Assembly (NCBI RefSeq): GCF_037996825.1
Contig: NZ_JBBNAC010000001.1
Span: 2,666,001-2,730,000, forward strand
Direction of reading: 5' to 3'
From: Bdellovibrio sp. BCCA
GTDB lineage: Bacteria; Bdellovibrionota; Bdellovibrionia; Bdellovibrionales; Bdellovibrionaceae
DNA length: 64,000 nucleotides
Shown: positions 10,777-22,292 of the stretch, piece by piece
Position numbering within the stretch: the first letter of the stretch is position 1
Layout: every line of letters starts with the position of its first letter
Notes under the pieces: model-generated
What the model saw: only the letters and a program-made list of their open reading frames with translations
Databases searched by the model: none
Told to the model about the DNA's origin: nothing
Position numbers and translations under genes: made by a program

Positions 10777-13700
10777 ATGAGGAACGTGCGCCGAACTGTC
10801 CTTTGGGCTTTCTTTTTATTGATCTCACCACTCCTGAGCGGCTGCTCTTTGGACCTGGCTATCGATTCAATGAATCCGACAGATCTTCTTGAATCTCCGA
10901 GCCTTGATAACACTCTTAACTCTTCAAAACTTATTCGAGCCCAATATCCGCAAACAGTGCGCGTGTTAAATACAGCAACGACTTTGCAAAACGGAAAAAT
11001 TCTTTTAGCCGGTGGCGCTCTCAATGCGACAAACTCCACGGTCGCTTTATCTTCTGCAGAGATTTATGATCCTGAAACAGGATCCTGGTCGCAAGCGGCT
11101 TCTCTTCCGCAGGAAAGACTTAATCACACGGCTACTGCACTTCAAGACGGAAAAGTGTTGATCGTCGGTGGCGCCATTAATAACAGTGTCTCAACGACTT
11201 GCCTGAATACTGCGGCTCTTTATGATCCCACCTCAAACACCTGGAGCGCGGCGGCTTCTTTGGTTACAGGTCGTTGTTATCATAGCGCAACCCTTCTTTC
11301 CGATGGACGTGTTATGGTCATCGGCGGAAGAACTGAAAATTCTCTGGCCCTTGGAATTTCAAATTATCTTAGCACCGCTGAAATTTATAATCCTGCAACC
11401 AACACATGGACTGCGGCTGCAAGCATGACGACGAATCGAGGATATCACAGTGCGATTTTACTGAAGAACGGTAAAGTCTTTGTCGTCGGTGGACGAAACA
11501 CTTCGGGCCTTTTAACCACCGCTCTCTACAACCCTTCAGCAAACTCATGGGCGGCGGGTCCGTCGTTAACAAAATCTAGAAAAGATCACACAGCGACTCT
11601 TCTGCCGGAAGGAAAGGTCGTCATCATTGGCGGCGTTGATGATGCAGGAGTCATCTTAAGTGACACGACTATCTACGATCCGTCTTCAGGTCCTTCAGGA
11701 ACATTTTCAAATGGTGCGGCTCTCGCCGTCGCACGCAAATCTCATACGGCAACTCTGGTCGGCGACAGAGTTTTTGTCATCGGCGGCAGTACGACATCGA
11801 CGGTCTTTAAAGACACTGTGATTTACGATCCATCCACAAATCAATGGCAGACATTTGCGGACCTGCAAAGTGGTCCTCGTTATCTTCATACGGCGAATAT
11901 CGCGGGAAACTATTTGGTGGTTCTTGGCGGCCTTTCGGAAACAACGTACCTTTTCCCGGCAAATACTCCAGAGAGACTGAATATCTCCACGTTCATTTGG
12001 AAATCTGAAGGCAATATGTCGGCAAGCCGATTTATTCCCGCCGCTGCCCTGTTGAATAATGGCAAAGTCTTCATCAGCGGAGGCGTTTCAACAGAGCCCA
12101 CTCTGACTTATCCTACTTCGTCCGATATTTTCGATCCGGCAACTGGCAATTGGAAGGCAGCCGCCCCCATTCCTGCTTCGCGCGCTCGAAGCACAGCCAC
12201 TACTTTACCTAATGGCAAAGTGCTTGTCGTCGGAGGTCAAGATGACGCAAACATCTTGGGTACCACTGTTCTTTATGATCCAGATTCCGATAGTTGGAGT
12301 GCAGGGCCCTCATTAACTCATCCTCGATCCGGACACGTAGCCACACTCTTACCGAATGGAAAAGTCCTTGTGATCGGCGGAACAGGAGATTTCGCCGGCT
12401 CCGTTTTAATAGGTGAAGCTGAAGTCTATGATCCAAGTACAAACACCTGGAGTTCAGGTGGCACGATGCCGGTTCCTTGTTTTTATCCTTCAGCAACAAT
12501 GGTCTCTGGCGGCCAAGGAAAAGTTTTCGTCATCGGAGGATTAGCTACTCCGGTTTATTCGCAAGCCGTGCAGATTTATGATGTCGCCTCAAACACATGG
12601 ACCTCGGGAGCTTCGTTAACAACGGGCCGAATGGGACATATTGCGGCTGCCATCGGTGGAAAGATTCTTGTCGCCGGTGGTGGAACCAACACAGGTGGTT
12701 TTTTAAATTCTGTTGAAATCTATGATATCGCGTCAAACACATGGCAGCCCGGTCCCGCTATGTCCATGGGACGCAACTCTGCGGGTGCAGCAACTTTGCC
12801 CGACGGAAAAATTTTGGTGATAGGCGGACAGGTCACAAACCTCTTTGCTACTTCAAGCTCTGAAATTTATGACCCCGTTGCAAATAGTTGGAGCAAAGCA
12901 AGCCGGTTCCTAAACACGGGACGCGGCGGATTTTCTCTCTTCACGTTACCAGATAGAATTCTTGTTCTTGGCGGCGCAGATCCAATGAAATCTATTATCA
13001 CCGCCGAGTCCTACGGCCAAGAGACCTCACCTCCTCAGTGGCAAGCGCCTGATCTTCTTAAAGGGAGAACGAATCATACTTCGACATTGCTTAAAGACGG
13101 CAGAGTTCTCGTTGCTGGCGGAAGTGATGGTGTTAAACCTATATCGAGCACGGCGATTTATAATCCTTCCACAAATCAATGGACTGCGGGGCCGAATCTT
13201 TCCGTCGCTCGCCAAAATCACACTGCAACTCTTCTGTCTTCGGGAAAAGTCTTTATCGCTGCCGGTTCCGGAGGAGGCGCAGGTCTTGACTTTAATCAAA
13301 CAGCCGACATCTTTGATCCAAGCACAAACACCATCACTACGATGCCAATTTTAACCGCGCGCGCCGTTCATGCAGCTATTGAAATACCGGGAGGAAAAGT
13401 TTTACTCTCTGGTGGAGTTGGAAGCACGGACATCTCAACAAAGAATGAGATCTGTGATCCCAATGCGGGAACTTGTCAGGCTTCTGCGGATCGACCTAAT
13501 GGGCTTTATGATGTTGTGGTACCTTTGAAAAACGGAGATTATTTATTTGTCGGCGCTTTTGGAAATAGCACTTATCATCCGGCAACGGACTCCTGGACGG
13601 CGGTTGCTTCCATGAGTGTTCAACGCGCTTTTCACGCGGCCCTCCTGCTTCCGAACGGAAAAGTTCTTGTTGTCGGCGGTATTTCTGTTCTGGATGGTCA

Positions 13701-14034
13701 AACCGTTGCCAGCATGGAGATTTATGATTCAACAACGAATACCTGGTCTGCAGGCGCTCCCTTAGATACTCCTCTTTCTTTATCCGCCATCAATCTTCTT
13801 CCTTCCGGAGAAGTCGTTCTTACTGGCGGCACAGCCTCGAGTATTTTTGAGGCTGGCAGCGGAGTTCGGATTTATAACTACCTGACAAACCAGTGGACTC
13901 TCGCACAACCCTTAAAGGATGCTCGCGTCGGTCACACAGCGACTCTTTTAAAGAATGGACACTTAATGGTGTACGGCGGCCAAAGCCCTACTCTTGGAAC
14001 GATTCCTTTCTGGGAGCAGGTTTTCGATCCCTAA
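10777..14034 (+). CDS. Giant kelch-repeat lipoprotein
   Basis: A 1085-residue exported protein. The N-terminus has a lipoprotein signal peptide with lipobox-like LSGC (Cys about residue 23). Almost all the rest is kelch repeats of about 45-55 residues with the pattern GKVLVxGG, AEIYDPxTNTW, and R..HTATLL. I count 21 GG-type motifs, two of them degraded (IAAGS and FVGAF). Twenty-one repeats would fit three seven-bladed beta propellers, which is an inference. The family mediates binding to proteins or carbohydrates; no catalytic domain is seen. The AGGAGG upstream is about 30 bases from the ATG; a GTG at codon 4 is an alternative. Likely role: surface or periplasmic binding scaffold. Confidence 0.88.
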   Translation: MRNVRRTVLWAFFLLISPLLSGCSLDLAIDSMNPTDLLESPSLDNTLNSSKLIRAQYPQTVRVLNTATTLQNGKILLAGGALNATNSTVALSSAEIYDPETGSWSQAASLPQERLNHTATALQDGKVLIVGGAINNSVSTTCLNTAALYDPTSNTWSAAASLVTGRCYHSATLLSDGRVMVIGGRTENSLALGISNYLSTAEIYNPATNTWTAAASMTTNRGYHSAILLKNGKVFVVGGRNTSGLLTTALYNPSANSWAAGPSLTKSRKDHTATLLPEGKVVIIGGVDDAGVILSDTTIYDPSSGPSGTFSNGAALAVARKSHTATLVGDRVFVIGGSTTSTVFKDTVIYDPSTNQWQTFADLQSGPRYLHTANIAGNYLVVLGGLSETTYLFPANTPERLNISTFIWKSEGNMSASRFIPAAALLNNGKVFISGGVSTEPTLTYPTSSDIFDPATGNWKAAAPIPASRARSTATTLPNGKVLVVGGQDDANILGTTVLYDPDSDSWSAGPSLTHPRSGHVATLLPNGKVLVIGGTGDFAGSVLIGEAEVYDPSTNTWSSGGTMPVPCFYPSATMVSGGQGKVFVIGGLATPVYSQAVQIYDVASNTWTSGASLTTGRMGHIAAAIGGKILVAGGGTNTGGFLNSVEIYDIASNTWQPGPAMSMGRNSAGAATLPDGKILVIGGQVTNLFATSSSEIYDPVANSWSKASRFLNTGRGGFSLFTLPDRILVLGGADPMKSIITAESYGQETSPPQWQAPDLLKGRTNHTSTLLKDGRVLVAGGSDGVKPISSTAIYNPSTNQWTAGPNLSVARQNHTATLLSSGKVFIAAGSGGGAGLDFNQTADIFDPSTNTITTMPILTARAVHAAIEIPGGKVLLSGGVGSTDISTKNEICDPNAGTCQASADRPNGLYDVVVPLKNGDYLFVGAFGNSTYHPATDSWTAVASMSVQRAFHAALLLPNGKVLVVGGISVLDGQTVASMEIYDSTTNTWSAGAPLDTPLSLSAINLLPSGEVVLTGGTASSIFEAGSGVRIYNYLTNQWTLAQPLKDARVGHTATLLKNGHLMVYGGQSPTLGTIPFWEQVFDP

Positions 14035-16176: not shown

Positions 16177-16582
16177 ACCGTGAGAGTGCTGACTTAAGCT
16201 GCGTGTCGCACCGGAAAGAACTTGCACCAATCTGGCGGAGTCGCCATAGATCACGGAGGCCTTTCAACAACAAGTTGGACAGCGCTTAGTATCGCCATTC
16301 GCCGGAATCGTCGTTGCTCTTGTAAGCAGTAAGCTTTCTTCAGCTAATATGACTGCTAAAATAGATTGCAGTTTGATCGCGCATTAATTTCCGATCTCTG
16401 CCATTTCAACGGGGGCTCTTTAAGAGAGCCCTCGAATCCTCTTTCCTAGACTGCCTTATCAAAATCAGGACAAAATCCTGCCAAATCGATTTTAAACGCA
16501 TCTGACGTTCAAAAATCGGCGGCACTGCCATTGCTCTTTCGGACAGGCACAACAAACCGCCCTCGGGCAGAAGGAGCAGAAA
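16177..16582. other. 406-base region without a convincing gene, upstream of microcin-like operon
   Basis: No open frame with a proper start is seen. The region holds a hairpin GGGCTCT/AGAGCCC (16413-16431) without a T-run, and a smaller CAGGA/TCCTG hairpin near 16465. The promoter of the peptide gene must lie here, but no clear -35/-10 pair can be named. An open frame of 45 codons (16250-16387) lacks a start codon and was rejected. Confidence 0.5.
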
Positions 16583-16708
16583 ATGCTTATCAAAGTAAAA
16601 GCGACAGCTACTAAAAAGACGACAAAACGCAATGCGATCAAAGTACGTAACGCTATCAAAGTTCGCAATGCCATCAGAGTTCGTAACGCGATTCGCGTAC
16701 GCAACTAA
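16583..16708 (+). CDS. mccA: Microcin C-like precursor peptide with hexapeptide repeats and C-terminal Asn
   Basis: A 41-residue peptide with an excellent ribosome binding site (AAGGAG, six-base spacer). The N-terminal 16 residues are basic and Thr-rich. They are followed by NAIKVR twice, NAIRVR twice, then a final Asn. There are 14 Lys/Arg and no acidic residue. The four repeats use different synonymous codons, so the amino-acid repeat is under selection and is not a recent DNA duplication. The MccB enzyme of E. coli adenylates the C-terminal Asn of its heptapeptide substrate; this peptide also ends in Asn and is followed by an MccB relative. Peptides of about 40 residues are known from Yersinia microcin C-like systems. 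Whether it is modified is inferred from context. Confidence 0.85.
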   Translation: MLIKVKATATKKTTKRNAIKVRNAIKVRNAIRVRNAIRVRN

Positions 16709-16715
16709 TTTTAAG

Positions 16716-16739
16716 GGGGCGCACATTGCGCCCCTTTTT
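16716..16739 (+). terminator. Intrinsic terminator/attenuator between precursor and biosynthetic genes
   Basis: The stem GGGGCGCA/TGCGCCCC with a three-base loop is followed by TTTTT and lies eight bases after the precursor stop codon. Placed inside the operon, it would give abundant short mRNA for the peptide and limited read-through into the exporter and enzymes. The E. coli mcc operon also has a terminator just after mccA. Confidence 0.88.
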
Positions 16740-16755
16740 ATTTTAAGGATCTTTT

Positions 16756-17991
16756 ATGAAATACGTTTCACGCTTTAATCAAATGCTCACGATTGATGCT
16801 CTTTTTGAAGGAGGCCGCATGTTTGTTGGTGCGACCTCTGTTACTTATCTTCTTCATGCGGGTTTGAGTCTTTCACAAATCGCATTTCTTAAATCTATTC
16901 AAGCAATGACGGTACTTTTAGGCGAAGTTCCTACGGGAGTTTTGGCGGACAGCATGGGACATAAAAAAAGTCTTCTTGCCTCAAGTCTGTTTGCAGTTCT
17001 TGGCTTTGCTCTTTACTACTGGGGCGAGGGATTTAACTTCTTCGTTATCGCTGAAATTCTCACGGCCCTTTCCCTTTGTTTTTGGTCAGGTGCCTTCGAG
17101 GCTTTCGCCATTGATGAGGCAAAGCTTGAAGAGACTCCGGGAGAAATCGACAGATTTTTTCACTCTAATCAGTCTTTAAATAGCGTCACTGTTTTGGTTT
17201 TTGGTCTTCTCGGAGGATTCCTCGGTCACTTAGGTTTAGCTCTTCCCTATTTAGCTGCTATTGGCTCTTATATTTTTATGGGCGCTCTTTTATGGTCCAT
17301 TCCTGAAACATTGAAAACTCACGCCGGTTCTTCCGAATACGTTCCTTGGTTTAAAAATATTAAGAAGCACCTTAAAGCCACTTTCACTCAAGGACTCTTG
17401 CATCCGGCTTTGATGCCCTTTTTTATTGCGAATATTTTAATTCAGTTCACAGTGCAGCCTTTGCTTCACTACTGGCAACCTTACTTTCAAAGTCTAAATG
17501 CACAGCTTGGAACTGAAAAGCAGGGTTTGATCTTTGCTGCTTATTGCGCCACGTCCGCTCTGTTTGGTGCCGTCTATGCGAAGTATTCGGCAAAATCTTT
17601 TCTTCGTTCGCCAAAAATCACGATTGTTTTATTTGCTGTATTTTCGGCTCTCTACTGCCTGCTGGGTTTAGAAAGCCCATGGCTATTTGCCGTGATTGTT
17701 TTCTGTCTTCTTCAAGGAACGTTGTCTATTGCTCGAACGTCTTTGGGTGTGCGTATGAATGAAAATATCGATTCAAGTTCCCGCGCCTCCATCTTGAGCA
17801 GTTTGAGTTTGATTTCAAGGCTGGGAATGGTGGGAGCTCTCTATGTCATCGGGCAACTTGTGCCAGCTCAGCAAAGTGTGCCCTCACTGGTTCCCCTTTT
17901 TAAATACTTCGGATTTATTTCCGTTGGGTTGGTTGTTCTTATCGTTGTTGGATCTTTCATTAATCAAAGAAAAAAGAGAGTTATTTTATGA
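16756..17991 (+). CDS. mccC: MFS exporter, MccC-like
   Basis: A 411-residue, 12-helix major facilitator. The motif A-like loop is seen as GVLADSMGHKKSLL, and an acidic SGAFEAFAIDEAKLEE segment follows helix 4, typical of small MFS drug exporters. The ATG has an AAGGAT site ten bases upstream. Its stop overlaps the start of the MccB-like gene by four bases (ATGA). In microcin C systems an MFS pump of this size (MccC) exports the product and gives partial self-protection; the same role is inferred here from the operon. Sequence alone does not distinguish it from other MFS pumps. Confidence 0.85.
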   Translation: MKYVSRFNQMLTIDALFEGGRMFVGATSVTYLLHAGLSLSQIAFLKSIQAMTVLLGEVPTGVLADSMGHKKSLLASSLFAVLGFALYYWGEGFNFFVIAEILTALSLCFWSGAFEAFAIDEAKLEETPGEIDRFFHSNQSLNSVTVLVFGLLGGFLGHLGLALPYLAAIGSYIFMGALLWSIPETLKTHAGSSEYVPWFKNIKKHLKATFTQGLLHPALMPFFIANILIQFTVQPLLHYWQPYFQSLNAQLGTEKQGLIFAAYCATSALFGAVYAKYSAKSFLRSPKITIVLFAVFSALYCLLGLESPWLFAVIVFCLLQGTLSIARTSLGVRMNENIDSSSRASILSSLSLISRLGMVGALYVIGQLVPAQQSVPSLVPLFKYFGFISVGLVVLIVVGSFINQRKKRVIL

Positions 17992-19055
17992 AATATCAAG
18001 TTCCCCGCTATTTAGGTATTCAAGATGTTCAACGTACAAAGAAAAATTCTTATGTTTTGAATGTTGGTTTTTCAGACCACCTTTCAAAAAAAGTTCAGGT
18101 GGATTCTGAGGCGATGGAGGTTCTTAAGTTTTTCCTTCAAGCAAAAACGGCAAATGCCGCAAAAAAGAATTTCTCCTGGAGTGATGCTAAAACTCAAGAA
18201 GTTCTTGAAGGACTTAAAACGGCAAAGCTCCTCGTCGAAGTTCCTAAGCGTCCCAAAAAATATGAACGCTATGACCGTCATTCTTTATTCTATCAACTTG
18301 GCGATTTAAATGGTCTTGAAGCGCAGAAAATTTTATCTCAAAAGAAAGTGGCTTTGATCGGTGCTGGCGGTATTGGTAATTGGGTAGGACTTAATTTGAT
18401 TGGTGCGGGATTTAAAGAAATCCGTATTATTGATTTTGACCGTGTTGAGTTAACTAATCTGACCCGCCAGGTTTTATTTGACGAAAAAGATCTGGGAAAA
18501 CTTAAAACAGAAGTCGCTGCAAAGGCTTTACAAAAGAAAAATACTCAAACAAAAGTTCGTCCTGTCGAGATGAAAGTAACCTCTGCCAAAGAACTTAAAA
18601 AAGTTTTAAAGGGCATGGACTTCGTTATTCTCTCGGCGGATCGCCCTGAAAAAATTCATGATTGGGTGGACGAGGCCTGCCAGGCGTTGCAAATTCCATA
18701 TCTCAATATCGGATATCGTGATGGAGAAGGCGTCGTAGGCCCGATGACTGTGCCAGGAAAGACTTCGTGCTATCAGTGCTTTAAAAGTCAAACTTCTGAA
18801 GACAAAACCAAAGATCACTCTAGCGCAGAAATTCAAAATCTTTTTGATGACCGTTATCAGGCGCCGTCCTTTGGACCTTTGAATGCCTTGGTTTCTACTG
18901 TAGGAAGCTTGGAAGTGATTAAATACTTCACGGGCCTTGGCGAGTTGCGCAGTCTTGATACTGAAATCTCCGTCAATGCGTTGACGTTGGAATGGCGTCA
19001 TCACTCCTATCATCGCGACGCGCACTGCTGGCACTGCCAAAGTGATTCTTTATGA
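17988..19055 (+). CDS. mccB: MccB-like ThiF/E1-family peptide adenylating enzyme
   Basis: A 355-residue enzyme, about the length of E. coli MccB (350). An N-terminal winged-helix-like peptide-clamp region (residues 1-85) is followed by the E1 adenylation domain: RYDRHSLFYQ, the nucleotide loop GAGGIGN (from residue 125), IIDFDRVELTNLTRQVLF, DLGKLKTEVA, and GPMTVPGKTSCYQC. Two zinc-binding pairs are visible, CYQC (261-264) and CWHC (347-350). Segments such as TNLTRQVLF and VPGKT-CY-C agree with MccB as I recall it, better than with ThiF or MoeB. The expected reaction is NTP-dependent activation of the precursor's C-terminal Asn to give an N-P-linked peptide nucleotide. The nucleotide (ATP or CTP) cannot be told. 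It overlaps both neighbours by four bases. Confidence 0.92.
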   Translation: MKYQVPRYLGIQDVQRTKKNSYVLNVGFSDHLSKKVQVDSEAMEVLKFFLQAKTANAAKKNFSWSDAKTQEVLEGLKTAKLLVEVPKRPKKYERYDRHSLFYQLGDLNGLEAQKILSQKKVALIGAGGIGNWVGLNLIGAGFKEIRIIDFDRVELTNLTRQVLFDEKDLGKLKTEVAAKALQKKNTQTKVRPVEMKVTSAKELKKVLKGMDFVILSADRPEKIHDWVDEACQALQIPYLNIGYRDGEGVVGPMTVPGKTSCYQCFKSQTSEDKTKDHSSAEIQNLFDDRYQAPSFGPLNALVSTVGSLEVIKYFTGLGELRSLDTEISVNALTLEWRHHSYHRDAHCWHCQSDSL

Positions 19056-20149
19056 AAATACAACGCGAACACCAAAGATTTGAAATCGACGTCCGCTTCT
19101 CCGCTGGAAAAAAAATTTATCAAAGAGTTTATTCAACGGCGGGATTCTGGCACAAAGAGGGACCCAATGTCAGCCATGGGTCCTTGACACGTCAATTCAA
19201 TGAAACAAGACAGCTTCAGTTGCAAGCTGTTCTAAAAGCAGCTTTGCGTTTAATAAAACGGCAAGGTCTTTCTAACTATCGTGTCACCTTACGCGCGGAT
19301 CTGCGCGCGGTGAAGACGGCCAAAAGACTTCAACAATACAAAGAAAGTATTTATATCGAAATTCCCGGCAACCAAGGTTTTTATTTCGTTGCGCCTCTCG
19401 CGCAGTTCAATGAAGCGGATTTTGTTAAGCTTTTGAACGAACACTTTTCTTATTTTAAAAAACCTCTTTTGCAAACCGCTTTGGATGTCAACACTTTGAC
19501 TTTAAGCCCTTCGGCCTTTGGCTTTCTTCTGCATGAAGGACTCGGTCACCGTCACGAGTCTGACGATCACACGACCAGATTGAAATTAAAAAAATCCTCT
19601 TTGACGAACTTCTCTGTGATGGACTCTCCTGGCGATGAGACGATGCTTGGACACACGCCGTTTGATGATTGGGGTGTTTCTGGTAAAGACGTGGTTCTTT
19701 ATAACGGCCTGACTGGAAAGACAAATTTACTGACTGCTAAAAGCGGAAATTCCCGGGCCGTCAGTCATGAATATCATCCTTTAATTCGTCAACGCTGTTT
19801 GATCGTCAAAATGCATGCAAAGGTTGAAGCTCCTGCCATTGAAAGTTCGCTACATATCGAAGACGTTCGCATGGGTTCCTGGAATGGAGATCTTTTAGAG
19901 CTCGAAGTTGGAAAAGCTCTTTATCATGATAAGAAAGGCCAAGAGTGGCGCCTTTCCCCATTTACAATTAAAATGAAACCGGAATTAGTCAGTCAGATGA
20001 AAGCCTTTGGCGACTTTGAAATCTCAAGTCCCGCTGGCGGCTGTCACAAAGGTTTGCAGCGGGGCCTTGATATCAGTTTTTTGACACCTTCCGCTTTTAT
20101 AAATTTAAACAAAAGCGCCGTGTCCGATCGGCTGGAATTTATTTTTTAG
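19052..20149 (+). CDS. TldD/PmbA-like zinc metalloprotease in the microcin-like operon
   Basis: A 365-residue protein with the TldD zinc motif HEGLGH (HExxxH, residues 161-166) followed by RHESDD, and near the C-terminus AGGCHKGLQ, which matches the TldD GG-Cys-GK-Q segment whose Cys is the third zinc ligand. It is about 115 residues shorter than E. coli TldD, mostly at the N-terminus, and no TldE-like partner is seen nearby. TldD/E proteases trim RiPP precursors, including processing of a long Yersinia microcin C-like peptide. Here a dedicated, possibly homomeric version may trim the 41-residue precursor. Its ATG overlaps the mccB-like stop. Confidence 0.85.
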   Translation: MKIQREHQRFEIDVRFSAGKKIYQRVYSTAGFWHKEGPNVSHGSLTRQFNETRQLQLQAVLKAALRLIKRQGLSNYRVTLRADLRAVKTAKRLQQYKESIYIEIPGNQGFYFVAPLAQFNEADFVKLLNEHFSYFKKPLLQTALDVNTLTLSPSAFGFLLHEGLGHRHESDDHTTRLKLKKSSLTNFSVMDSPGDETMLGHTPFDDWGVSGKDVVLYNGLTGKTNLLTAKSGNSRAVSHEYHPLIRQRCLIVKMHAKVEAPAIESSLHIEDVRMGSWNGDLLELEVGKALYHDKKGQEWRLSPFTIKMKPELVSQMKAFGDFEISSPAGGCHKGLQRGLDISFLTPSAFINLNKSAVSDRLEFIF

Positions 20150-21645: not shown

Positions 21646-21788
21646 AAAATTCCTTTCCAAAAAATATTTCAGCCATTCTGGTCCGAAAAGTTTTCGAGTC
21701 AATCCGTGACGATGAATTGCAGATGTTGTGTTTTTACATCTTCAAAGTCGGCGGGAGTTTTGGAATCTTTAAGCCCAAGGAGATTTTT

Positions 21789-22292
21789 ATGAAAATGATG
21801 ATTTTGTTAACTGCTTTATTTTCAATGGTTGGTTTTACTTCAGGTGCCTATGCGTGCAATGGGCCGATTAAGTGTGCGATAAAAACTTACACCGGAAATT
21901 ATGTCACCGCCGTTGGAGGTGGAGGACGTATTACTGATGTGATTCATACCGATGCCACAAGGCTTCGCAGTTGGGAAAAATTTATTTTGGAAGATTCCTG
22001 TGAAGGTACACCGATTCACTACGGCATTAAAACTTACAACGGTCACTATCTCACCGCCGTGGGTGGCGGCGGGCGCATCACCGACGTCATTCATTCCGAC
22101 GCCACTCAACTACAAGCGTGGGAGAAATTTACTTTTATCCCTCTTGGTGGTGATGTCTATGCCATTCAAACAGCTACAGGAAATTACGTGACGGCTGTCG
22201 GCGGTGGTGGTCGTATCACCGATGTAATTCATACTGACGCCACAAAAATTGGAAATTGGGAAAAGTTCACCTTGGTCTGTGGCATCCGCTAA
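21789..22292 (+). CDS. Secreted triple-repeat, fascin-like beta-trefoil protein
   Basis: A 167-residue protein with a signal peptide (MILLTALFSMVGFTSGAYA) and three tandem repeats of about 45 residues. Each repeat contains IKTYxGxYxTAVGGGGRITD, VIHxDAT and WEKF. Three such units with a Tyr/Val strand and a WEKF end are typical of beta-trefoils such as fascin or ricin-B-like domains, which bind sugars or actin-like polymers. The GGGGRITDVIH core is kept while codons differ between repeats. The start has AAGGAG seven bases upstream. The repeats and export are certain; the fold is inferred. Confidence 0.82.
   Translation: MKMMILLTALFSMVGFTSGAYACNGPIKCAIKTYTGNYVTAVGGGGRITDVIHTDATRLRSWEKFILEDSCEGTPIHYGIKTYNGHYLTAVGGGGRITDVIHSDATQLQAWEKFTFIPLGGDVYAIQTATGNYVTAVGGGGRITDVIHTDATKIGNWEKFTLVCGIR

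Follow-up and report, generated by a model that had tools for sequence, protein, structure and literature searches.

Microcin C clusters comprise, at minimum, a precursor gene (mccA), the gene for the modifying enzyme MccB and an exporter gene (PMC9239234). MccB acts on a C-terminal Asn, using two ATP and passing through a succinimide intermediate (PMC12250964), and the clusters are described, in the literature as covered here, with one payload per precursor. In a 64,000-nucleotide stretch of the Bdellovibrio sp. BCCA genome (contig NZ_JBBNAC010000001.1, positions 2,666,001 to 2,730,000; hereafter, the window), four genes form an operon that is of microcin C type by gene content, and that encodes a precursor with hexapeptide repeats as well as a TldD-type protein. 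The products of this operon likely act together to make Trojan-horse peptide-nucleotide antibiotics, and we favour, with a probability of about 55%, a multi-core system in which each repeat unit would be a core of its own.

The Escherichia coli system (mccABCDE plus mccF) shares with the window a precursor ending in Asn, an MccB-clade enzyme, an MFS gene and a hairpin or terminator after mccA, the terminator having been reported in E. coli (PMC6495379). However, its precursor has 7 residues and a single core, whereas that of the window has 41 residues and a repeat. Its gene order is also different: MccB precedes the MFS gene, followed by a methyltransferase, a GNAT and an S66 gene in the opposite orientation, with no TldD-type protease, while the window has the order A-MFS-B-TldD (precursor, MFS, MccB-like and TldD-like). 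Yersinia pseudotuberculosis McC resembles the window in its long precursor and TldD-family maturation (PMC6495379, PMC10885120), but its protease gene lies outside the cluster and its MccB is bifunctional (PMC9239234), whereas here the protease is encoded in the operon and the enzyme is a ThiF-only protein of 355 residues. The precursors of Hyalangium minutum are long as well (36 and 46 residues) and are adenylated in vitro, but the cluster contains two MccA, two MccB, ABC-type exporter genes and MccH and, as described, no TldD (PMC7157772). Among other ribosomally synthesized and post-translationally modified peptides (RiPPs), the pearlin (ammosamide) clusters contain a TldD/E homologue, proposed to release the C-terminal product (PMC10885120), but have other modification enzymes and no MccB.

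A first-pass annotation, made from the DNA letters alone, had considered the operon probably new. This view needs qualification, as long MccA peptides and TldD/E processing are already described in Y. pseudotuberculosis, and only the dedicated TldD within the operon and the repeat precursor look new. In the open-licence literature, and among the matches listed, we found no repeat or multi-core MccA, no TldD within an mcc cluster and no mcc cluster of Bdellovibrio; a repeat precursor may still figure in the precursor table of PMC6495379.

A microcin C-type operon with a repeat precursor

The four open reading frames all lie on the + strand (16583..20149), and the last three genes overlap by four bases (ATGA) at both junctions, MFS/MccB-like and MccB-like/TldD-like, just as had been annotated; the MFS, MccB-like and TldD-like assignments also hold up. 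Identities to proteins of Bdellovibrio sp. HCB-162, the nearest named relative in our searches, are 97% and 93%. The locus contains an MccB-clade enzyme with an N-terminal clamp, a precursor with the two features used to define mcc precursor genes, namely an Asn end and a strong Shine-Dalgarno sequence (PMC6495379), an exporter-family gene and a terminator-like hairpin after the precursor gene. It falls outside the subgroup of 7(8)-residue MccA peptides, given its 41-residue precursor, and outside the Yersinia/Nocardia subgroup, since its 355-residue enzyme has ThiF as the sole Pfam family over the cut-off (3.8e-50) and thus lacks the second domain of a bifunctional MccB.

The small peptide ending in Asn, also correctly annotated, has the sequence MLIKVKATATKKTTKRN followed by two AIKVRN and two AIRVRN units, so that it terminates in VRN. 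A bare K-R-N precedes the four full units. Identity at period 6 extends over 21 of 35 positions, compared with 3.96 on average and at most 13 in 20,000 shuffles. Across all pairs of full units, 20 codon differences are synonymous and 4, at the K/R position, are non-synonymous, which argues that the repeat is kept at the protein level.

A second operon with a repeat precursor was found in G248, a genome from another family of the same order (locus L043). Its MccB is 51% identical to the window enzyme and is followed by a TldD-type gene (33%), while a GNAT gene, two genes without a Pfam match and an MFS gene are located upstream of this pair. Over 90 residues, the GNAT protein matches the end of the E. 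coli mcc plasmid's GNAT-family protein with 34% identity (5.8e-6). The window MFS protein, likely an exporter, is 45% identical to its G248 counterpart and 24% (E 1e-14) to the one encoded on the E. coli mcc plasmid. Before the G248 MFS gene, a 62-residue precursor (L043:4948-5136), with a Shine-Dalgarno sequence and a TTG start, ends in SAVRN and six AGPVRN units. The full units of both precursors, four in the window and six in G248, share the pattern A-x-x-V-R-N, with wholly different residues at positions 2 and 3. When units are counted from the C-terminal end towards the N terminus, six residues at a time and for as long as they end in R-N, there are five in the window and seven in G248, the first of each being degenerate. 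Both precursors are cationic (14 and 13 K+R, respectively, without D or E), and neither contains Cys or Trp. On the basis of the repeat statistics and this homologous precursor, a chance open reading frame was rejected.

Other clusters in the order are differently composed. G196, a Bdellovibrionota relative, carries a microcin C-type cluster (L044:8353-11388) with a predicted heptapeptide, MNSTARN, followed by a hairpin, MccB, MFS and GNAT. G238 (L045:984-4547) has a predicted 91-residue peptide with the ending LVSN, an MccB, two unknown genes with relatives in G248, and an S66 peptidase resembling MccF, with 36% identity to its S66 counterpart on the E. coli mcc plasmid. No TldD-type gene was present in the stretches fetched from G196 or G238. 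Two adjacent G248 genes without a Pfam match (L043:6411-7681; 140 and 287 residues) are 33-34% identical, over 63 and 144 residues, to the unknown pair of G238; from sequence, the shared pair possibly serves tailoring or immunity in the mcc clusters of the order.

Hairpins follow the precursor gene in G248 (z -3.48), G196 (z -2.89) and E. coli MccC7-H22 (z -3.27) as well. The promoter of the window operon was not placed, since the promoter scan returned no sigma-70-like site on the + strand between 16180 and 20600. Another terminator-like hairpin (16410-16434), in the gap of 400 bases that precedes the precursor gene, is likely the end of the preceding transcript.

The MccB-clade enzyme and the compact TldD-type protein

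Sequence searches, structure searches and phylogeny all place the window enzyme, likely a nucleotidyltransferase, with MccB. Scores against the NCBIfam MoeB/ThiF equivalogs were below their cut-offs (TIGR02355, 95 vs 377 bits; TIGR02356, 114 vs 275). In a sequence search of the PDB, MccB gave the best matches (2.3e-44 to 3.5e-44), followed by ubiquitin E1 (1.3e-19) and PaaA (4.5e-15, residues 91-349), and MccB outscored PaaA by 96 bits. When the predicted model (pLDDT 91.8, pTM 0.89) was submitted to Foldseek, MccB chains occupied ranks 1-24, ahead of PaaA, ThiF and MoeB, with 355-365 alignment columns; therefore, nearly the whole chain is matched, including the N-terminal clamp. The four cysteines of the two annotated pairs (C261/C264 and C347/C350) are invariant in all 30 aligned sequences, the window included.

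Among the 98 proteins listed, 43 share at least 42% identity with the enzyme, including those of HCB-162 (97%) and Sorangium sp. So ce448 (49%). A quick 82-row tree, computed under a mixture model, joined MccB and the new clade that contains the window enzyme with 85 SH-aLRT. In a 57-row tree (LG+G4, no mixture), from which 25 of the 82 rows had been dropped as long-branch or near-duplicate and which kept 32 of the 44 new-clade rows, the new clade was supported at 100/99, its join with the E. coli, G196 and G238 MccB proteins at 98/90 and the split from MoeB/ThiF at 100/100, with the caution, for both trees, that long branches come together where MoeB/ThiF joins. The annotation as a close MccB relative is thus sustained by sequence searches and trees alike; a position within MoeB/ThiF, named beforehand as the finding that would overturn it, did not occur. 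A housekeeping MoeB/ThiF enzyme was rejected on the equivalog scores and the tree split. Elsewhere, a scan of genome contigs with a single MccB protein yielded 10 loci, all distant, and an MccB profile retrieved at least 80 loci in viral contigs, where the best match by E-value had 28% identity over residues 56-351.

The fourth protein is, as judged from its sequence, a diverged and compact branch of the TldD family (MEROPS M103; PMC10885120) rather than a canonical TldD, and likely a metalloprotease. The predicted structure has the TldD fold, and the family's active-site residues, HExxxH with a downstream E and D and a remote Cys-x-Lys, are present in all seven aligned sequences, the window included. 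It therefore resembles E. coli TldD/E in predicted fold and active site, but has 365 residues compared with approximately 480 in E. coli TldD, falls below the profile cut-offs (Pfam PF19289, 14 vs 22 bits; NCBIfam TldD, 31.4 vs 635 bits) and has no adjacent TldE. The operon contains no TldE; four PmbA/TldD-family genes over the cut-off were found elsewhere in the genome. These form two gene pairs (G000:C1:673844-675905 and 882125-884166), and a motif scan found HExxxH with E and D at TldD spacing in only one of the four (L074).

A plasmid search with the window TldD-type protein returned no match. One candidate relative, cluster L078 on Lactobacillus gasseri plasmid pEB01-1, at first resembled another TldD+ThiF pair but was rejected as an mcc relative, as it has a SagB-like gene and a precursor-sized open reading frame with Cys and Ser, and was left out of the 57-row tree. 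It encodes a compact TldD-like protein (338 residues, HELFGHLSEGD) between SagB-like and ThiF-type genes (L078:994-3675). Compact TldD branches may thus have been recruited to other RiPP clusters too.

Table 1. Positions of the operon features in the window
Feature	Position	Strand	Evidence
Shine-Dalgarno AAGGAG of the precursor gene	16571..16576	+	Sequence
Precursor gene (mccA-like), 41 aa, C-terminal Asn	16583..16708	+	Open reading frame; homologous precursor at L043:4948-5136
Four full hexapeptide units AI[KR]VRN, likely cores	16634..16705	+	Period-6 test; codon differences
Terminator-like hairpin and T run, between precursor and MFS genes	16713..16737	+	Fold z -4.14
MFS protein, 411 aa, likely exporter (MccC-like)	16756..17991	+	PF07690
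MccB-clade ThiF-fold enzyme, 355 aa, likely nucleotidyltransferase	17988..19055	+	Profiles, trees, predicted fold
First Cys pair, CYQC (C261, C264)	18768..18779	+	Both Cys invariant in 30/30 aligned sequences, window included
Second Cys pair, CWHC (C347, C350)	19026..19037	+	Both Cys invariant in 30/30 aligned sequences, window included
Compact TldD-type protein, likely metalloprotease, 365 aa	19052..20149	+	Profiles, predicted fold, active-site residues
HEGLGHRHESD: HExxxH plus E169, D171	19532..19564	+	Present in 7/7 aligned sequences, window included; E. coli TldD residues from PMC5810440
C331-x-K333, likely third metal ligand and clamp lysine (TldD Cys454, Lys456)	20042..20050	+	Alignment; residues from PMC5810440

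Proposed multi-core processing and the competing readings

According to the multi-core reading, the TldD-type protein would cleave behind every unit-terminal Asn, the MccB-clade enzyme would next attach a nucleotide to the freed C-terminal Asn of each unit, and the MFS protein would probably export the resulting short peptide-nucleotides, whose target would be aspartyl-tRNA synthetase. We infer each of these elements, namely nucleotide attachment, cut sites, export and target. Within the repeat, an Asn gains a free carboxylate only upon cleavage of the chain. The protease encoded in the operon is the most evident choice for exposing it. An Asn that ends every unit while positions 2 and 3 vary is the pattern expected if each unit is a core. 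Furthermore, a six-residue unit is near the usual MccA length (the E. coli heptapeptide and the peptide predicted in G196), which fits each unit as a substrate in its own right; in E. coli MccB, seven residues separate the active site from the formyl pocket (PMC6495379). Two orders of events can be envisaged: either the chain is cut first and loaded afterwards, or the last Asn is loaded on the leader-bound precursor, the unit is cut off and the cycle is repeated. We propose the latter, magazine-fed order only tentatively, at less than even odds. Here, a leader-bound MccB-like enzyme would load the last Asn and the TldD-type protease would clip off a hexapeptide-nucleotide, exposing the next Asn, so that one precursor would deliver at least four warheads (six in G248).

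If correct, one warhead per repeat would be a new layout for this class of antibiotics. Multi-core RiPPs such as the cyanobactins carry repeated cores behind one leader and use enzymes different from those of the window; we know of no multi-core RiPP that carries nucleotides. A magazine-fed system would be, as far as is known, the first multi-core nucleotide RiPP, and it would come from a predatory bacterial group. Through such an operon, a relative of Bdellovibrio would possess a Trojan-horse antibiotic pathway. With a repeat precursor and a dedicated TldD-type protease, each translation would give a multiple of the usual yield, and a compact enzyme set for producing peptide-nucleotides from encoded repeats would be at hand. 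A general question would also become testable, namely whether the TldD family, besides trimming leaders, can release cores by cutting.

Several observations weigh against the multi-core reading. E. coli TldD/E is described as an N-terminal, sequence-tolerant trimmer and not a site-specific cutter (PMC10885120), and E. coli TldD needs TldE, although an active archaeal TldD homodimer is also mentioned (PMC5810440). Unit length does not discriminate, because MccB enzymes modify longer peptides too (PMC6495379, PMC7157772). The repeat precursor is known from two loci only. Constraint on the protein can be measured for just one of them, the window, because in G248 five of the six units have identical DNA. 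A protein-database search with both precursors at E 10 found no further repeat precursors, a weak test, as the window's own precursor was likewise unlisted. G227 and G241 each have an MccB-like gene (approximately 30% identity) but lack a TldD-type gene, and the stretch scanned contained no precursor ending in Asn. With so few clusters, the association between repeat and protease is only suggestive.

The alternative of a single payload, in which the enzyme modifies only the final Asn of the complete 41-residue precursor, the TldD-type protein then trims the N terminus and the repeats serve only as a cationic vehicle or spacer, has known precedents. The 42-residue MccA of Y. pseudotuberculosis is shortened to 11 residues (PMC6495379) via TldD/E (PMC10885120), the MccB enzymes of H. 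minutum modify intact precursors (PMC7157772), and the charge of both repeat precursors agrees with a vehicle. However, such a scheme leaves unexplained why five or seven consecutive units stay in register and end in R-N while positions 2 and 3 change between loci, and why the copy number differs, and we regard it as doubtful. That the operon makes another ThiF-type RiPP, in which the C-terminal carboxylate is activated but a different bond is formed (amide, lactam or macrocycle), seems improbable to us. The chemistry of ThiF-like RiPP enzymes does vary (PMC12250964, PMC12150305), and the new clade is distinct from the E. coli branch. Moreover, among the best 25 of the 35 NCBIfam models that match, only TIGR03882 exceeds its cut-off (41.8 vs 36.9 bits). 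This TOMM leader-binding label also counts against the multi-core reading and agrees with the public name of the relatives, 'TOMM precursor leader peptide-binding protein'. We take this label as a near-family effect, since E. coli MccB matches the same model below the cut-off (29 bits) and the window's genome has no match to a YcaO cyclodehydratase at E 0.001; on the latter ground, a TOMM/azole RiPP was rejected. The C-terminal Asn of both precursors, the margin of MccB over PaaA, the mcc-like gene set and hairpin, and the lack of Cys and Trp all speak against a different product.

The TldD-type protein could instead confer self-immunity, destroying stray product and leaving the precursor alone. 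No immunity gene of known type is evident in the operon, as none of its four proteins has a GNAT, HIT or S51/S66 Pfam match, in contrast to G248 with its GNAT gene. Searches of the window's own genome likewise gave no clear self-immunity gene, with one S66 match and, for a second aspartyl-tRNA synthetase, a single bacterial-type protein over the cut-off among seven matches. Nevertheless, we consider an immunity role very improbable, given that the described immunity proteins belong to other families (PMC9239234), that TldD-family proteins are known RiPP leader proteases (PMC10885120) and that G248 has both the GNAT and the TldD-type gene.

Genomic neighbourhood

A DUF2231 gene located downstream is present in 11 of the 23 other genomes of the genus. 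In the three of those 11 loci that were examined, genes from the upstream side of the window adjoin DUF2231 in none and one downstream gene does so in one, so no empty insertion site could be drawn. Two other genes of the window are of note. One (10777-14034) encodes a protein of 1085 residues that is rich in Kelch repeats, with 11 Pfam stretches, and whose N terminus, by eye, is lipoprotein-like. The other (21717-22292) encodes a protein that, also by eye, looks secreted and contains three similar tandem blocks (around GNYVTAVGGGGRITDVIHTDAT).

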